From Nostoc sp. CENA543 (GTDB lineage Bacteria > Cyanobacteriota > Cyanobacteriia > Cyanobacteriales > Nostocaceae), in assembly GCF_002896875.1 (NCBI RefSeq), contig NZ_CP023278.1, positions 248,001 to 312,000 on the forward strand: a stretch of DNA of 64,000 bases, given 5' to 3'. Made by a program: the position numbers and the translations under genes. The notes under the pieces were generated by a model. It saw only the letters and a program-made list of their open reading frames with translations, did no database searches and was not told the DNA's origin. Shown piece after piece: positions 5,262 to 63,088 of the stretch; position 1 is the stretch's first letter, and each line of letters opens with the position of its first letter.

Positions 5262-5332
5262 ACTAATGACTAATGACTAATGACTATTGACTATTGACTA
5301 TTGACTATTGACTATTGACTAATGACTATTGA
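5262..5332. repeat. Short tandem heptamer repeat (TGACTAA/TGACTAT)
   Basis: About ten consecutive 7-base units of TGACTAA, TGACTAT or TTGACTA fill the space between two convergent genes. This is the same heptameric family seen elsewhere in the window. Confidence 0.9.
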
Positions 5333-5339
5333 CCATCCT

Positions 5340-7100: not shown

Positions 7101-7152
7101 TGGGGGTTGGGGACTGGGGACTGGGGACTGGGGATTGGGGACTGGGGACTAA
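7101..7152. repeat. Short tandem heptamer repeat (GGGGACT/GGGGATT)
   Basis: Seven or more tandem units of GGGGACT with one GGGGATT variant, upstream of the YggT gene. This is the C/G-rich version of the heptamer repeats. Confidence 0.9.
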
Positions 7153-7226: not shown

Positions 7227-7271
7227 CTAATGACTAATGACTAATGACTAATGACTAATGACTAATGACTA
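7227..7271. repeat. Short tandem heptamer repeat (TAATGAC)
   Basis: Six to seven identical units of TAATGAC run to within two bases of the stop codon of the YtxH-like gene. Confidence 0.9.
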
Positions 7272-7272
7272 A

Positions 7273-7623
7273 TTAAGAATCTTGCTTGACGGAACGATCA
7301 TTCACTGGTTGAGTAGAACCGCCGTTAACGTTACCTAAATGCTTCCTGACTTCATCAATTGTGGCATTTAGCTGGGCAATTTTATCTTCTAGCGATCGCC
7401 TTGCGGTTTCCATCTCTATGCCTTCACCCTCAGAAGATAGCATCTGACGGCGTTTGGCAGGCACTTTTTGATTTTCCTTGGAATTATTGATCATTTCTGT
7501 GCCTTCTTCCACTATTTCCTCGTTCTGGCGGGAAGCAATGACAGTACCTAAAATTCCGCCCACCACGCCGCCAAATATCGCCCCTACCAAAAAACCACTA
7601 CCAAAACCATCACGCTGACTCAT
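7273..7623 (-). CDS. YtxH-like small membrane/gas-vesicle-type protein
   Basis: The product is 116 residues from the ATG at 7623. A longer frame to 7692 exists, but the family-like start MSQRDGFGSGFLVGAIFGG follows directly from this ATG. It has one glycine-rich transmembrane segment (about 8-30, FLVGAIFGGVVGGILGTVIA). A charged region then leads to a predicted coiled coil (about 65-100, RRSLEDKIAQLNATIDEVRKHL). This layout is that of YtxH-domain proteins, whose function is unclear. The gene lies directly downstream of upp on the same strand and may share its transcript. Confidence 0.75.
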   Translation of the reverse strand: MSQRDGFGSGFLVGAIFGGVVGGILGTVIASRQNEEIVEEGTEMINNSKENQKVPAKRRQMLSSEGEGIEMETARRSLEDKIAQLNATIDEVRKHLGNVNGGSTQPVNDRSVKQDS

Positions 7624-8908: not shown

Positions 8909-10435
8909 ATGCCCTCAACTTTTAGGACTACCTCATCCCTTGATCATTCATTTGATGTCATCGTGATTGGATCTGGTATTGGTGGTTTAGTCACAGCCAC
9001 CCAGCTAGCAACAAAAGGTGCAAAAGTTCTGGTACTGGAAAGTTATGTCATTCCAGGTGGGAGTGCTGGCTACTTTGAACACGAAGGTTATCGCTTTGAT
9101 GTGGGGGCTTCGATGATCTTTGGTTTAGGAAACAAAGGTACTACGAATCTACTGACTCGCGCCCTCCAAGCCGTAAATATTAGTCTGGAAAGTATTCCTG
9201 ATCCCGTACAGATTCATTACCACCTACCACAAGGTTTAGACTTAAAAGTTGATAGGGATTATGACAAATTTTTGCAAAATCTTATTGCTTACTTTCCTCA
9301 TGAAGCTAGAGGAATTCGTCGTTTTTATGACGAGTGTTGGCGAGTATTTAACTGTCTTAACAAAATAGATTTACTGTCTCTAGAAGAACCTGGGTATCTT
9401 TTGCGGGTATTTTTGCAACATCCTCTAGCTTGTCTTGGTTTAGCTAAGTATCTCCCTCAAAATGCTGGAGATGTCGCCCGACGTTATATTAAAGACCCCC
9501 AATTATTAAAATTTATCGATATGGAATGTTATTGCTGGTCTGTAGTCCCAGCCAGTATGACACCAATGATTAACGCTGGGATGGTTTTTTCTGACCGACA
9601 TTATGGCGGTGTGAACTATCCTCAAGGCGGTGTAGGACAAATTGCCCAGGCTTTAGCACAGGGTTTAGAAAAAGCAGGCGGTAAAATTGAATACCAAGCT
9701 AAGGTTACAAAAATTCTTACTCAAAAAGGTCGCGCAGTCGGTGTGCAACTAGCCAATGGCGAAACTTATGGGGGCAAACGCATAGTTTCTAATGCTACAC
9801 GATGGGATACATTTGAAAAATTGTTACCAGTGGAGAAAATGCCACATAATGAGAAAAAGTGGCAACAAAGATATCAAAAATCGCCAAGTTTTCTGAGTCT
9901 ACATATGGGTGTCAAAGCTGCGGTTTTACCTGCGGAGACGGAGTGCCATCATATTATTTTGGAAGATTGGCAAGAGATGATGACACCGGACGGTACTTTA
10001 TTTGTGTCGATTCCCACCTTGCTTGACCCAGATTTAGCTCCCAGAGGGTATCATATCATTCATGCGTTCACACCCCATTGGATTGATTATTGGCAGGGAA
10101 TGTCTGCAAAAGAGTACGAAGCGAAGAAAGAAGCGGCGGCTTGGCGAGTTATTGACAGACTAGAAAAGATTTTCCCTGGTTTAGATGCAGGATTAGATTA
10201 TTTAGAAGTGGGTACACCCCGCACTCATCGGCGTTTTTTGGGGCGAGTAGATGGGACTTATGGGCCGATACCCCGGCGTAAATTATGGGGATTAATAGGA
10301 ATGCCCCTAAATCGTACATCTATTCCAGGGCTTTATTGTGTAGGAGATAGTACATTTCCAGGTCAGGGGTTGAATGCGGTAGCGTTTTCTGGCTTTGCTT
10401 GCGCCCATCGCATCGCAGTAGATTTGGGACTGTGA
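8909..10435 (+). CDS. crtH: Prolycopene (carotene) isomerase CrtH/CRTISO
   Basis: A 508-residue FAD-dependent isomerase. It converts poly-cis-lycopene, made by the plant-type desaturases, to all-trans-lycopene at the membrane. Seen: the dinucleotide-binding motif [21 protein letters not shown] at the N-terminus (about 16-37), the [20 protein letters not shown] segment near 48, and the C-terminal FAD-contact run [20 protein letters not shown] near 475. The motifs distinguish it from the related CrtI-type desaturases only by overall resemblance, but length and cyanobacterial context favour CrtH. It ends before two strong hairpins and a convergent peptide-gene array. Confidence 0.92.
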
Positions 10436-10595
10436 AATCAATTCAAAATTGACGCATACTGGAATGACATGACTAAAATGGTGCAATAAAAAATCTGTTT
10501 CATCGCCGTTTATCTGCGTCCATCTGCGTTTTTGTCAAAATCTAATGCACTATTTTATAGCAGTCCTATCTGATTTGTGAGAACTCGCGCTGTCC

Positions 10596-10628
10596 AGATC
10601 CCCGACTTCTTTGAGAAGTCGGGGATCT
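10596..10628. repeat. 15-bp stem palindrome AGATCCCCGACTTCT/AGAAGTCGGGGATCT
   Basis: A perfect 15-base inverted repeat with a 3-base loop lies 160 bases after crtH. It looks like an interspersed palindrome and could also stop crtH transcription, though the T-tract is minimal (TTGTGTC). Confidence 0.7.
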
Positions 10629-10715
10629 TGTGTCTCATGAATGATTTAGGATTGCTAGGAACATCTGTGTATATAACGACGGAGTTTTAGATCCAATTTT
10701 TTATAAAGAATAAAA

Positions 10716-10755
10716 AACTAAACCCTAAGCTGATTATTGCGCTTAGGGTTTAGTT
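10716..10755. terminator. Bidirectional hairpin between crtH and the peptide array
   Basis: AACTAAACCCTAAGC pairs with GCTTAGGGTTTAGTT, a 15-base perfect stem with a 10-base loop. On the minus strand the stem is followed by TTTTTTATTC. It lies 65 bases after the last peptide gene, so it is well placed to end the array transcript and possibly crtH as well. Confidence 0.75.
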
Positions 10756-10819
10756 CAACTTCTAAATCTAATTTAGTTGACTCTATTCATCTTTACTTTC
10801 ATATAGATGAAGATAATTA

Positions 10820-10978
10820 TTAACCATCAACACATATTAAAGTCCAACAAATAGTAACTCTCAAACCACCCAAAACATCGCTGATTTCTTGTTCGTTGAG
10901 TTCGTGAATAAAGCTATCTTCACCTTGGAAAAGTTCACTACCAGCAGGGATTAAGTTAGAAATTGTTACGTTAGCCAT
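10820..10978 (-). CDS. Double-glycine leader peptide, array copy 1 (core LRVTICWTLICVDG)
   Basis: A 52-codon gene, last of six in transcription order. The leader (residues 1-38) contains the segments IPAGSELFQGEDSF and LNEQEISDVLGG, a double-glycine cleavage signal of the type cut by C39-peptidase ABC exporters. The predicted 14-residue core is the most divergent of the set: it has a second cysteine (residue 44) and ends DG instead of ES. The start is set by AGGAG 11 bases before ATG. An in-frame TTG upstream would give 81 codons but has no such site. The function could be a bacteriocin or a signalling peptide; no modifying enzyme or exporter is adjacent. Confidence 0.85.
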   Translation of the reverse strand: MANVTISNLIPAGSELFQGEDSFIHELNEQEISDVLGGLRVTICWTLICVDG

Positions 10979-11113
10979 GATTGATTGTTCTCCTGAGTAA
11001 ATTAGTGCTAATGTGGATTTAGATTCTGAGCTATCTGGTGTTCTAGACAGATAGAAAAAATGCAATTTGTTTCGCGATGCTCATCCCTATGACAGTAGAG
11101 ATGGGCATTGTCA

Positions 11114-11272
11114 TTAGGACTCAACGCAAATCAAAGTCCAACCGATAGTAACTCTCAAACCACCCAAAACATCGCTGATTTCTTGTTCGTTGAGTTCGTG
11201 AATGAAGCTATCTTCACCTTGGAAAAGTTCGCTACCAGCAGGGATTAAGTTAGAAATTGTTACGTTAGCCAT
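11114..11272 (-). CDS. Double-glycine leader peptide, array copy 2 (core LRVTIGWTLICVES)
   Basis: A 52-codon gene with the same leader as copy 1 and a core of intermediate type: LRVTI as in copy 1 but with glycine at position 44 and the VES ending of copies 3-6. It is therefore a bridge between the two core types. Its ATG is exactly 294 bases from that of copy 1. It has the same AGGAGAACAATCAATC leader before the ATG. Confidence 0.85.
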   Translation of the reverse strand: MANVTISNLIPAGSELFQGEDSFIHELNEQEISDVLGGLRVTIGWTLICVES

Positions 11273-11407
11273 GATTGATTGTTCTCCTGAGTAAATTAGT
11301 GCTAATGTGGATTTAGATTCTGAGCTATCTGGTGTTCTAGACAGATAGAAAAAATTTAATTTAGTTCGAGATGCTCATCTCTATGACAGTAGAGATGGGC
11401 ATTGTCA

Positions 11408-11566
11408 TTAGGACTCAACGCAAATCAAAGTCCAAGCTACTGTGATTCTCAAACCACCCAAAACATCGCTGATTTCTTGTTCGTTGAGTTCGTGAATAAA
11501 GCTATCTTCACCTTGGAAAAGTTCGCTACCAGCAGGGATTAAGTTAGAAATTGCTACGTTAGCCAT
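11408..11566 (-). CDS. Double-glycine leader peptide, array copy 3 (core LRITVAWTLICVES)
   Basis: A 52-codon gene carrying the majority core. The leader has alanine instead of threonine at residue 5 (MANVAISN), a change shared with copy 4. The single cysteine is at residue 49. The ribosome-binding site reads AGGAGAATAATCAATC, one base different from its neighbours. Confidence 0.85.
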   Translation of the reverse strand: MANVAISNLIPAGSELFQGEDSFIHELNEQEISDVLGGLRITVAWTLICVES

Positions 11567-11701
11567 GATTGATTATTCTCCTGAGTAAATTAGTGCTAAT
11601 GTGGATTTAGATTCTGAGCTATCTGGTGTTCTAGACAGATAGAAAAAATTTAATTTAGTTCGAGATGCTCATCTCTATGACAGTAGAGATGGGCATTGTC
11701 A

Positions 11702-11860
11702 TTAGGACTCAACGCAAATCAAAGTCCAAGCTACTGTGATTCTTAAACCACCCAAAACATCGCTGATTTCTTGTTCGCTGAGTTCGTGAATAAAGCTATC
11801 TTCACCTTGAAAAAGTTCGCTACCAGCAGGGATTAAGTTAGAAATTGCTACGTTAGCCAT
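11702..11860 (-). CDS. Double-glycine leader peptide, array copy 4 (core LRITVAWTLICVES)
   Basis: A 52-codon gene with a core identical to copies 3, 5 and 6. The leader differs by Ala5 and by serine at residue 28 (ELSEQEISDVLGG). ELSEQE is closer to the classical double-glycine consensus than ELNEQE in the other copies. Confidence 0.85.
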   Translation of the reverse strand: MANVAISNLIPAGSELFQGEDSFIHELSEQEISDVLGGLRITVAWTLICVES

Positions 11861-11995
11861 GATTGATTGTTCTCCTGAGTAAATTAGTGCTAATGTGGAT
11901 TTAGATTCTGAGCTATCTGGTGTTCTAGACAGATAGAAAAAATGCAATTTGTTTCGCGATGCTCATCCCTATGACAGTAGAGATGGGCATTGTCA

Positions 11996-12154
11996 TTAGG
12001 ACTCAACGCAAATTAAAGTCCAAGCTACCGTGATTCTTAAACCACCCAAAACATCATTGATTTCTTGTTCGTTGAGTTCGTGAATGAAGCTATCTTCACC
12101 TTGGAAAAGTTCGCTACCAGCAGGGATTAAGTTAGAAATTGTTACGTTAGCCAT
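11996..12154 (-). CDS. Double-glycine leader peptide, array copy 5 (core LRITVAWTLICVES)
   Basis: A 52-codon gene with the majority core. The leader is changed at residue 33 (EINDVLGG instead of EISDVLGG), close to the cleavage site. Synonymous differences from copies 3 and 4 (for example ACG for Thr42) show that the identical core is kept while silent sites drift. Confidence 0.85.
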   Translation of the reverse strand: MANVTISNLIPAGSELFQGEDSFIHELNEQEINDVLGGLRITVAWTLICVES

Positions 12155-12289
12155 GATTGATTGTTCTCCTGAGTAAATTAGTGCTAATGTGGATTTAGAT
12201 TCTGAGCTATCTGGTGTTCTAGACAGATAGAAAAAATTTAATTTAGTTCGAGATGCTCATCTCTATGACAGTAGAGATGGGCATTGTCA

Positions 12290-12448
12290 TTAGGACTCAA
12301 CGCAAATTAAAGTCCAAGCTACTGTGATTCTTAAACCACCCAAAACATCGCTGATTTCTTGTTCGTTGAGTTCGTGAATAAAGCTATCTTCACCTTGGAA
12401 AAGTTCACTACCAGCAGGGATTAAGTTAGAAATTGTTACGTTAGCCAT
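12290..12448 (-). CDS. Double-glycine leader peptide, array copy 6, promoter-proximal (core LRITVAWTLICVES)
   Basis: The first 52-codon gene of the array in transcription order. Leader and core match the majority type. Upstream homology to the other units stops about 28 bases before the ATG (near 12476), so this copy has its own promoter region instead of the inter-unit spacer. A plausible promoter lies at 12517-12544. Confidence 0.85.
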   Translation of the reverse strand: MANVTISNLIPAGSELFQGEDSFIHELNEQEISDVLGGLRITVAWTLICVES

Positions 12449-12785
12449 GATTGATTGTTCTCCTGAGTAAATTAGTGGGAAATTTTATTTTGGCGTTTGG
12501 TTTTGTTTGTCCCACATTTATATAATCTGTGTGGCAACTAGCAATTATGTATTTTGCTTCCAAGGAAACTGGACAAAAGAAATACACTTTACAATATTTT
12601 TTGATGACTCTTTGTAGTAAATAGAGTCTGAGAAATGCTGGAATAACAACGGTTTTGACAGAATACAGAAATTTAAGTTATTTACCGAATCAGGTATATG
12701 GAGAAGATATCGCCTGATTTTCTTCCCTAAAATAAAATCTTTTTGTCTCTTTCTATTAACTGTAGTTACCGCTTGGCAAAAAAAT
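12449..12785. other. Intergenic region between psbT and the peptide array
   Basis: It contains the array promoter candidate and one further weak hairpin (AATCAGG...CCTGATT, 12688-12719). No open frame is convincing. Confidence 0.5.
12517..12544 (-). promoter_or_regulatory. Putative sigma-70-type promoter of the peptide array
   Basis: On the minus strand, TTGCTA (12544-12539) and TATAAA (12522-12517) are 16 bases apart. This would place a start about 60 bases before the first ATG of the array. It is the best match in the region; nothing else supports it. Confidence 0.4.
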
Positions 12786-12817
12786 ATCCGTTGTTTCTAC
12801 GATGAGTAACAACGGAT
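12778..12817 (-). terminator. Terminator of the psbB-psbT transcript
   Basis: On the minus strand ATCCGTTGTT pairs with AACAACGGAT (12-base loop), followed by ATTTTTTTGCC. This is a textbook Rho-independent terminator about 50 bases after psbT. It separates photosystem II transcription from the peptide array further down the same strand. Confidence 0.8.
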
Positions 12818-12866
12818 CAGACTTTTATTTGATTTTGGAAGTTTGGTATAGGATACCTTGTGACTT

Positions 12867-12965
12867 CTATTTCTTCTCGATGCGGGGGGGTTCGCGGAAT
12901 GCGATCGCAAAGAATAAAACCCCAATCGCCAGGGTCAAAATTAAAATGTATGCAACGCTTTCCAT
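12867..12965 (-). CDS. psbT: Photosystem II reaction centre protein T
   Basis: A 32-residue single-span thylakoid protein. It begins [15 protein letters not shown], has one transmembrane helix (about 3-23) and a short basic cytoplasmic tail REPPRIEKK. This matches cyanobacterial PsbT, which sits at the photosystem II dimer interface near CP47 and D1 and helps repair of the acceptor side. It follows psbB by 123 bases on the same strand, the standard cyanobacterial arrangement. An AAGGAGC ribosome-binding site lies just before the ATG. Confidence 0.93.
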
Positions 12966-30381: not shown

Positions 30382-31377
30382 TTATAACTCAAAATTAGTA
30401 ATGTGATGCACTGCGGCGATCGCGCCATTGATGTAATTTGGAATTAACTGACGGTCTTTGACTGTATCGAGAATTTGTTTGACTGTAAAGAGTGCATCGG
30501 GGATGTTACGCACCTGGTAAACTTTGTTGGCTCTTTGTTGCTGGCGATCGTACAGTCTTGGTAGTGGTAGTGCTACTAAAGGTACACCCACAGAAGTACA
30601 TTCGTAAACTGTGTTGTATCCAGCACTGCCAACAACTATATCAGCTGCGGCAAAACATTCGATGCCTGGATGGTGAAACAACCAGAAATTACGTAAATCT
30701 TCACTAGGACAGTGAGGGGATAAAATTCTCACAGCGCATTCGGGGAAGGCTGTGTGTAGTTGTAGGGTAAGTTGAGTAAATAAGGGTAACTCTGAGATTT
30801 GCCCAGCCGCACAAACTAGGATAATTTTACGGCTATCATCGACTTTGAGAATCTGCGATCGCACAATTTTTCGGTCTGGTAATTCCTCTGGGTGGCGAAT
30901 TAACCACGGTGCTGTGTGTATTACTCCTGGTAAATCTCCTAAAGGTAAATCTTTTCCTTCTCCTGGGATAATTACCGCCTGAAAATTTTCAGTGACAAAT
31001 GAGCGCAAATTTTTAACTTCTACATATCGGGGATTTATATCTCGGTGAATCAAGATTTTTGGTATGTTGTGTAGTTGCGGTAATATATCCGCTAATTCAC
31101 CGCCTAATCCTCTAGGAAAGGTATCAATAATTAAGCAATTATATCTAGTAGCATTAGTATTAAAAATTTCTCTTACTTTCCAACAGGTTGCAGCAAAGCT
31201 ATCACTATCAGCAATCTGATGTAATAAGCAATCTTGTTTACTGATGTACTGTGCATAGGGACTATTAGTAATGATTTCTATGCTTCTTTGGTTAAGGGCA
31301 ATTCTCCCCAAAGATAAAGCACGATTAATATGTCCCCAACCGCCACCAAGAGCGTAAATTAACCAAGTTTTAGTCAA
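30382..31377 (-). CDS. MurG-like glycosyltransferase (GT28 C-terminal fold)
   Basis: The product is 331 residues with an N-terminal glycine-rich acceptor/nucleotide site LIYALGGGWGHINRAL. Its C-terminal half is typical of GT-B enzymes of the MurG/GT28 type (VCAAGQISELPLF near 205, then GSAGYNTVYECTSVGVPLVALP near 275, the UDP-sugar-binding loop). It is not canonical MurG, which has a TGGHVFPALA-like N-terminus. Substrate unknown. It lies directly upstream of ftsW on the same strand, 150 bases apart. The only start in reach is TTG at 31377, which lies inside a TTGACTA repeat block. Confidence 0.78.
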   Translation of the reverse strand: MTKTWLIYALGGGWGHINRALSLGRIALNQRSIEIITNSPYAQYISKQDCLLHQIADSDSFAATCWKVREIFNTNATRYNCLIIDTFPRGLGGELADILPQLHNIPKILIHRDINPRYVEVKNLRSFVTENFQAVIIPGEGKDLPLGDLPGVIHTAPWLIRHPEELPDRKIVRSQILKVDDSRKIILVCAAGQISELPLFTQLTLQLHTAFPECAVRILSPHCPSEDLRNFWLFHHPGIECFAAADIVVGSAGYNTVYECTSVGVPLVALPLPRLYDRQQQRANKVYQVRNIPDALFTVKQILDTVKDRQLIPNYINGAIAAVHHITNFEL

Positions 31378-31437
31378 TAGTTATTAGTCAATAGTTATTA
31401 GTCAATAGTTATTAGTCAATAGTCATTAGTCATTAGG
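31371..31437. repeat. Heptamer repeat block (TTATTAGTCAATAG units)
   Basis: Four copies of a 14-base double unit ending in TCATTAG repeats. Its first unit contains the TTG start codon of the minus-strand glycosyltransferase. Confidence 0.88.
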
Positions 31438-31555
31438 CATAGGGCATTGAGAATTTAGATATATAAATAATATCCCTTGTCCCCAGTCCCCAATCCCTCG
31501 GCTGGCAAATTAAACTATTCTTCCTTTTGCCTTTTGCCTTTTTACTTTTGCCTTT

Positions 31556-63025: not shown

Positions 63026-63064
63026 CAATTCAAAATTCAAAATTCAAAATTCAAAATTCAAAAT
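63026..63064. repeat. ATTCAAA tandem heptamer repeat
   Basis: Five perfect AATTCAA/ATTCAAA units sit in the promoter region of the small frame at 63089. Confidence 0.9.
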
Positions 63065-63088
63065 TAAGAAATCCTTATTTAATAAGGG

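Follow-up and report, generated by a model that had tools for sequence, protein, structure and literature searches.

The question raised by this locus is how the products of a tandem array of small peptide genes are matured when neither an exporter nor a modifying enzyme is encoded near by. The array lies in a stretch of 64,000 nucleotides from Nostoc sp. CENA543 (NZ_CP023278.1, positions 248,001 to 312,000), referred to as the window; the genome is denoted G000 and the contig C1. The array probably supplies the precursors of a class V-like lanthipeptide cluster that has been dispersed, with enzymes and exporter that would act in trans.

The array consists of six intact open reading frames (ORFs) on the minus strand, each of 52 codons plus stop, between crtH and psbT, with exactly 294 bp from start to start in all successive copies. 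Tandem Repeats Finder reported 10859-12477 (period 294, 5.5 copies, 96% matches, 0% indels, score 2993), a periodicity far above chance expectation. AGGAG precedes the start codon in all six genes. Cores have 14 residues and read LRITVAWTLICVES in four copies (copy 1, 12290..12448; copy 2, 11996..12154; copy 3, 11702..11860; copy 4, 11408..11566), LRVTIGWTLICVES in copy 5 (11114..11272) and LRVTICWTLICVDG, with two Cys and an altered C-terminus, in copy 6 (10820..10978); copies 3 and 6 were listed as 81-aa ORFs from an upstream TTG. The leader ends in EINDVLGG in copy 2 and in EISDVLGG in the other five. An earlier sequence-only reading of this DNA had given the gene number and length, the period, the core counts, the diverging two-Cys copy and the crtH and psbT (psbT/psbB) flanks, all as found here, and had left the strand unstated; of its leader end, E(L/I)SDVLGG, the double glycine (GG) stood and the 'EL' form did not. 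NCBIfam profiles scored the six precursors at only 11.6-14.1 bits, under their cut-offs, with no named family (NHLP, N11P etc.), and Pfam gave no match for the three precursors submitted.

The leader family is broad, with matches in 42 of 99 genomes at E <= 0.001 (the window's genome included). Close orthologues of the array were found in only two of the 12 other genus members searched, G010 and G012; Trichormus sp. M33_DOE_039 and Nostoc sp. CMAA1605 were the named records matching it, and a plasmid search returned one record with a partial match only (Nostoc sp. HK-01). With the single precursor of G034 as query (E <= 1e-7), 9 of 217 family genomes matched, namely G000, G010, G012, G034 and five from another genus (G171, G178, G180, G184 and G185). 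Their cores read LR[IV]T[VI][AGC]WTLICV[ED][SG], VRVIICWTLICVES, GRVQILWTAVCVEW, GKVTILWTALCVEW, ARVIILFTALCFEW and GKIAVEILWSGICGEISW. The unit [W/F][T/S]xxC is kept in all ten distinct cores and other positions vary; the first Thr of the window core (Thr3) is not conserved. The single conserved cysteine named in the earlier reading was thus correct as to the Cys, but the conserved unit is aromatic-[Thr/Ser]-x-x-Cys. Among 201 distinct leader-family ORFs, W[TS]xxC occurred in 13, of which 12 came from G000, G010, G012 and G034 and one (WTPVC) from G044.

Intact clusters were found in relatives, in the order kinase (LanK-like) -> HopA1 lyase (LanY-like) -> precursor(s) -> <- SurA <- HlyD <- long C39 exporter <- HTH. 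G034 has this order with one precursor, and G185 (on an 8.9-Mb contig) has it with four tandem precursor copies, each at most one base off the first; the kinases and lyases of both match PF01636 and PF17914. In G171 the kinase and HopA1 are followed by three precursor copies, with another gene in the exporter position, and in G178 by a precursor and SurA, the HopA1 missing its catalytic half. The contigs of G180 and G184 begin inside the array, and the exporter is next in G184 but not in G180. The kinase-HopA1 pair is directly upstream of the precursor in four of the nine family genomes (G034, G185, G171 and G178), and in the remaining three (G000, G010 and G012) it stands before rpsA. Among genome contigs, 28 loci were found by leader similarity; kinase and HopA1 were both present in 22 and an exporter part in 24, and the six loci without the pair were the three array contigs of G010 and G012 (L071-L073) and three loci ending near the precursor.

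The peptides might instead be exported unmodified through a C39 transporter as biofilm or filament signals, like EbfG of Synechococcus elongatus, the linkage to a kinase and lyase being incidental; the EbfG proteins are not known to be modified. Small GG-motif proteins function in S. elongatus biofilm development, according to the available text of PMC4997328, and in G007 leader-family precursors adjoin an exporter with no kinase-HopA1 pair there. This explanation is nonetheless unlikely: the pair is directly upstream in all four family genomes that are unrearranged and have the upstream side on the contig, and Thr/Ser-x-x-Cys is conserved.

The separation of the array from a kinase-HopA1 pair was traced through the spacers. 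In the window's genus, psbT and rpsA are adjacent in all nine array-free genomes examined (G005 left out of the count). In G000, G010 and G012, rpsA follows an orphan kinase -> HopA1 pair, the other neighbour of which is a transporter that we take to be of the AI2E type. Of the psbT-rpsA spacer, the portion next to rpsA recurs behind this HopA1 (to G009, 88% over 163 bp, E 9e-56; to G007, 87%), and the portion next to psbT recurs before the array (76% over 78 bp, E 3e-12, some of it being a hairpin). The array side of the array-psbT spacer matches DNA upstream of a G007 precursor (74% over 133 bp, E 4e-18). Junction 1, between psbT-side and array-side DNA, was placed at 12753..12780: 12781-12858 matches the psbT-rpsA spacer of G009 and G007, and 12467-12598 and 12709-12752 match the DNA upstream of the G007 precursor. 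Because the spacer halves match at each place, a single psbT-rpsA spacer has been broken, with the array on one side of the break and the pair on the other; judged by these matches, the two were formerly linked and the cluster has since been split. Two courses would agree with the spacer data, exchange with the AI2E locus and insertion with later rearrangement. After the AI2E gene comes the kinase in the three array genomes and precursors in G007, and neither within 1.5 kb in the other nine.

On the other side of the array, SurA faces it in G010, on one contig with HlyD and C39, and also in G012, where the end of SurA is on the array contig. In the window that place is occupied by crtH, and junction 2, between crtH side and array side, falls somewhere within 10436..10708; the spacer between SurA and the array in G010 and G012 is matched by 10709-10819. 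The exporter orthologue of G000 (L116) lies at C1 6.44-6.45 Mb (about 6.445 Mb), with cNMP-binding, C39 and ABC domains. It is intact in G000 and G010, with identities to G010 of 91% (C39), 89% (HlyD) and 93% (SurA). A leader-pattern search found no precursor beside either this exporter or the orphan pair (L113).

Small GG-type ORFs with differing cores are also present in G007, several of them between SurA and AI2E (L063, G007:C63, 7015-9024), one with the upstream region of the array; they are perhaps a relic or relative of the array cluster without kinase and HopA1. In G012, phosphoglycerate kinase and HAD phosphatase each appear split in two ORFs or frames (L176, 2030-3237; L171, 10118-10850), likely as draft-assembly errors.

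Candidate partners were sought across the whole genome. C39 gave 11 matches and HopA1 four, none of either within C1:248001-312000, in line with the absence of exporter and modifying genes near the array that had been noted before. The L113 pair (kinase, PF01636, 1.1e-9; lyase, PF17914, 4.9e-57), at about 5.713 Mb on C1, is intact, as is the L113-type pair in G010 and G012. In a set of 33 HopA1 proteins from 13 genomes of the genus, the L113 type is a 100/100 clade restricted to the three array genomes. Its lyase keeps R210, K241, R251 and Y258, with the spacing of CaoY 187, 219, 229 and 236, the Arg/Lys/Arg/Tyr given as catalytic in LanY (PMC9486802, as far as available). This pattern was present in 52 of 65 HopA1 proteins compared with 6 of 1300 shuffles; the set had 68 distinct ORFs, three of <=300 aa being dropped, and two of its rows (L207 and L215) are near-duplicates of others. 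The kinase has the motifs HNDLKLNN (HxDxxxxN kept) and DWE. Both proteins match the same solved complex, 9dk1, the lyase at chain B (1.7e-8) and the kinase at chain A (0.0087); its record labels these chains only 'Lyase' and 'Kinase'.

A second orphan kinase-HopA1 pair (L112, C1 about 4.92 Mb) was rejected as array partner. Pairs of this type occur once per genome in all 13 genus genomes, a distribution unlike that of the array, and their lyases make up the one clade of 13 of the 65 HopA1 proteins without the catalytic pattern, Gln replacing Lys in 13 of 13. The L112 kinase of the window's genome keeps its active-site motif, and L112 may perhaps be a kinase with a lyase-dead partner serving another function.

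Modification in trans by other enzymes of the genome was also considered. The single LANC_like match falls inside a 1106-aa open frame of LanM size at C1 about 0.84 Mb, and in G044 the precursor with WTPVC is encoded at the same locus as a LanM that has 45% identity to this protein, a HopA1 lying at the locus edge. The L012 and L014 kinase-HopA1 pairs are further candidates, since their lyases keep the LanY catalytic residues and are, by residues, complete. That LanM, L012 or L014 serves the array is quite unlikely, given that the junctions tie the array to L113 and that the distribution of the L113 type tracks it.

A remnant, in which linkage has been lost and an array out of use is merely homogenised by recombination, would accord with the distance from enzymes and exporter, with a promoter scan not above chance and with the altered C-terminus of copy 6 beside the second junction. 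All 15 full-length copies in three genomes (six in G000, three in G010 and six in G012) are open, and uncorrected pN/pS among them ranges from 0.16 to 0.19 in the leader and from 0.13 to 0.53 in the core, below 1 in both (pairs are not independent, because array copies are homogenised); against G034, the values are 0.48 and 0.44. With the L113-type pair intact in all three genomes and the exporter in G000 and G010, a remnant is highly improbable. Frame-disrupting substitutions without selection in orthologous arrays had been named as refuting the earlier reading; the nine sister copies are all open, with pN/pS <1. Its amplified gene for GG-leader peptides and its maturation in trans were supported, the orphan long-type C39 exporter being a specific candidate, but its interpretation was only partly so: it had overlooked the once-linked orphan kinase-HopA1 pair (class V LanK/LanY-like) and the traceable split.

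Several observations weigh against a dispersed class V-like cluster. Choline kinases outscore 9dk1_A as matches to the L113 kinase, which reaches 85.0 bits with the LxmK equivalog (cut-off, 315), and the G034 pair is nearer the L012 pair of the window's genome (60/53%) than L113 (53/48%). No cyclase gene (LanC, LanX) was seen among the clusters viewed. G171 and G180 carry another gene at the exporter position, the G178 HopA1 is without its catalytic half, and the G007 precursors and exporter without the pair stand at the AI2E locus itself. The AI2E-side spacers of G007 and G000 were compared and did not match; of SurA, the G012 array contig holds no more than the final 38 codons, at its start; and the three split genomes form one clade, so that co-occurrence of array and L113 counts as one event. 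The promoter scan found 5 promoters where 7.2 were expected.

For the dispersed class V-like cluster, the following course is proposed. Because aromatic-[Thr/Ser]-x-x-Cys is kept in varying cores, we infer that the peptide is dehydrated, acquires one (methyl)lanthionine ring, is cut at the GG site and is exported, each step in trans. The leader would be recognised by the kinase, and the conserved Thr (core position 8) would be phosphorylated and eliminated to dehydrobutyrine. Cys11 would add to it, unaided or helped by the kinase-lyase complex, giving one (i,i+3) methyllanthionine ring. The C39 domain would then cleave behind GG and the ABC/HlyD machine export the 14-mer, and six copies may provide higher dosage and room for core diversification. 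In class V, LanK phosphorylates and LanY eliminates, the cross-links of class Va cores have i,i+3 or i,i+4 spacing, and a Lan ring was shown in one case to form non-enzymatically, and more rapidly in the presence of the kinase-lyase complex, a case that depended on (Dha/Dhb)2-x-x-Cys (available portions of PMC9486802 and PMC12291118). The spacing of W-T-L-I-C in the window is the same, but only one residue there is dehydratable. A minimal class V-type pathway, with a 14-mer, a single (i,i+3) ring, kinase and lyase without a dedicated cyclase, a tandem array and three cooperating chromosomal sites, is put forward only tentatively. By analogy, the product would most likely be a secreted bacteriocin-like peptide, signalling being the alternative role.

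In the array spacers, a stem-loop ATGCCCATCTCTACTGTCATAGAGATGAGCAT (12253..12284, minus strand) follows copy 1, and the element is present in all five by spacer alignment; folding covered four of the 12 aligned spacers (own 1 and 2, G012 2 and G010 A). Similar stem-loops occur in the G010 spacers and G012 spacers 1-4, with one exchanged pair as judged by eye. G012 spacer 5 has diverged, and comparison with the G185 and G171 spacers showed the element to be absent from them. Behind copy 6, a strongly folding hairpin with a T-rich stretch (10716..10755, minus strand) is a probable terminator; the terminator scan, with a loop limit of 8, left it uncalled and found none where 1.1 were expected. 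Rfam on 10300-12900 gave a single sub-threshold match, to NrrF (21.1 of 60 bits). The upstream flank is psbT (12867..12965, minus strand), with psbB beside it and, in array-free relatives, rpsA next; crtH (8909..10435, plus strand) is convergent with the array. Short arrays of 7-bp units or multiples are scattered over the window (5262-5333, 7108-7150, 7227-7273, 31370-31440, 63027-63065 and others), as is known in heterocystous cyanobacteria.

Other members of the leader family differ in core and neighbours. In Nostoc sp. ATCC 43529 (L078), N. paludosum FACHB-159 (L082) and N. linckia z4 (L086), cores alternate Thr/Ser with hydrophobic residues, e.g. LRIASVTVTVTVSWTWTWTW and LLGITLTITVTITITITL; the precursors adjoin a kinase and, in L082 and L086, also a C39 exporter, HopA1 and an aldo/keto reductase. 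Dehydration of Ser/Thr followed by reduction to D-residues would produce a chain of alternating L and D configuration, like that of gramicidin A or polytheonamide; a bold candidate reading, by analogy, would make the product a ribosomal channel-former. Among kinase/HopA1 loci (cores distinct per locus), Cys occurred in 6 of 89 cores with the reductase and 12 of 33 without, where contig ends may hide reductases and six of the 12 come from L059 alone (partial HopA1, LanM present); the contrast suggests two branches, one with reduction and one with thioethers. L059 (G044:C211:37000-55000) holds six distinct Cys-containing precursors of the leader family, one with WTPVC, along with a LanM-like protein (45% to that of the window's genome), a long C39 exporter, HlyD, SurA and the edge HopA1.

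Class V lanthipeptides (cacaoidin CaoK/CaoY, lexapeptide, pristinin and rosins, in the available text of PMC9486802, PMC7794033 and PMC12291118) have a stand-alone APH-type kinase (PF01636) and a HopA1-type lyase (PF17914), as here; LanY catalytic residues and Thr/Ser and Cys at i,i+3 are also common to both. A LanK/LanY pair can be assigned to the array through homology and past linkage, and by this comparison the system would work as class V systems do. Unlike these, the array family has a GG leader, C39-SurA-HlyD export, a very short core with one candidate ring and, in the array itself, no linkage to its enzymes. LanD/LanX of class Va were not among the listed ORFs of the G034 and G185 clusters, no genome-wide search having been made, and a stand-alone LanC, as in class Vb, is absent from the genome, its sole LANC_like match being inside the 1106-aa frame; for these reasons the system is filed in neither. 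By description, it resembles the cyanobacterial 'type-B' set, with precursors near LanK and LanY, which the accessible part of PMC9486802 gives just as potential class V LanAs.

In the text available of PMC3140520, cyanobacterial bacteriocin clusters of groups I/II have HlyD, SurA and a long C39 transporter that bears a nucleotide-binding domain at its N-terminus, together with small GG precursors, often several, likewise here; that text names no kinase-HopA1 pair. A displaced array would escape that survey, which, in the part available, looked for precursors no farther than 20 kb from the cluster. The array has the LGG leader, and the long C39 exporter, HlyD and SurA adjoin it in G010 and are orphan in the window's genome.

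Prochlorosins are cyanobacterial precursors modified in trans by a promiscuous enzyme, ProcM. They differ from the array system in their class II LanM and Nif11-type leaders (PMC10783134, in part). The EbfG proteins of S. elongatus, small, secreted and with a GG motif (PMC4997328, in the same limits), are like the array peptides by description. In the open-licence literature, neither a characterised cyanobacterial class V product nor a description of this array was found. With its very small core, one candidate ring and G185 as intact reference cluster, the family would be a clean test of whether kinase and lyase suffice. Genome mining based on neighbourhood would find three unrelated orphans here; the junctions connect them.
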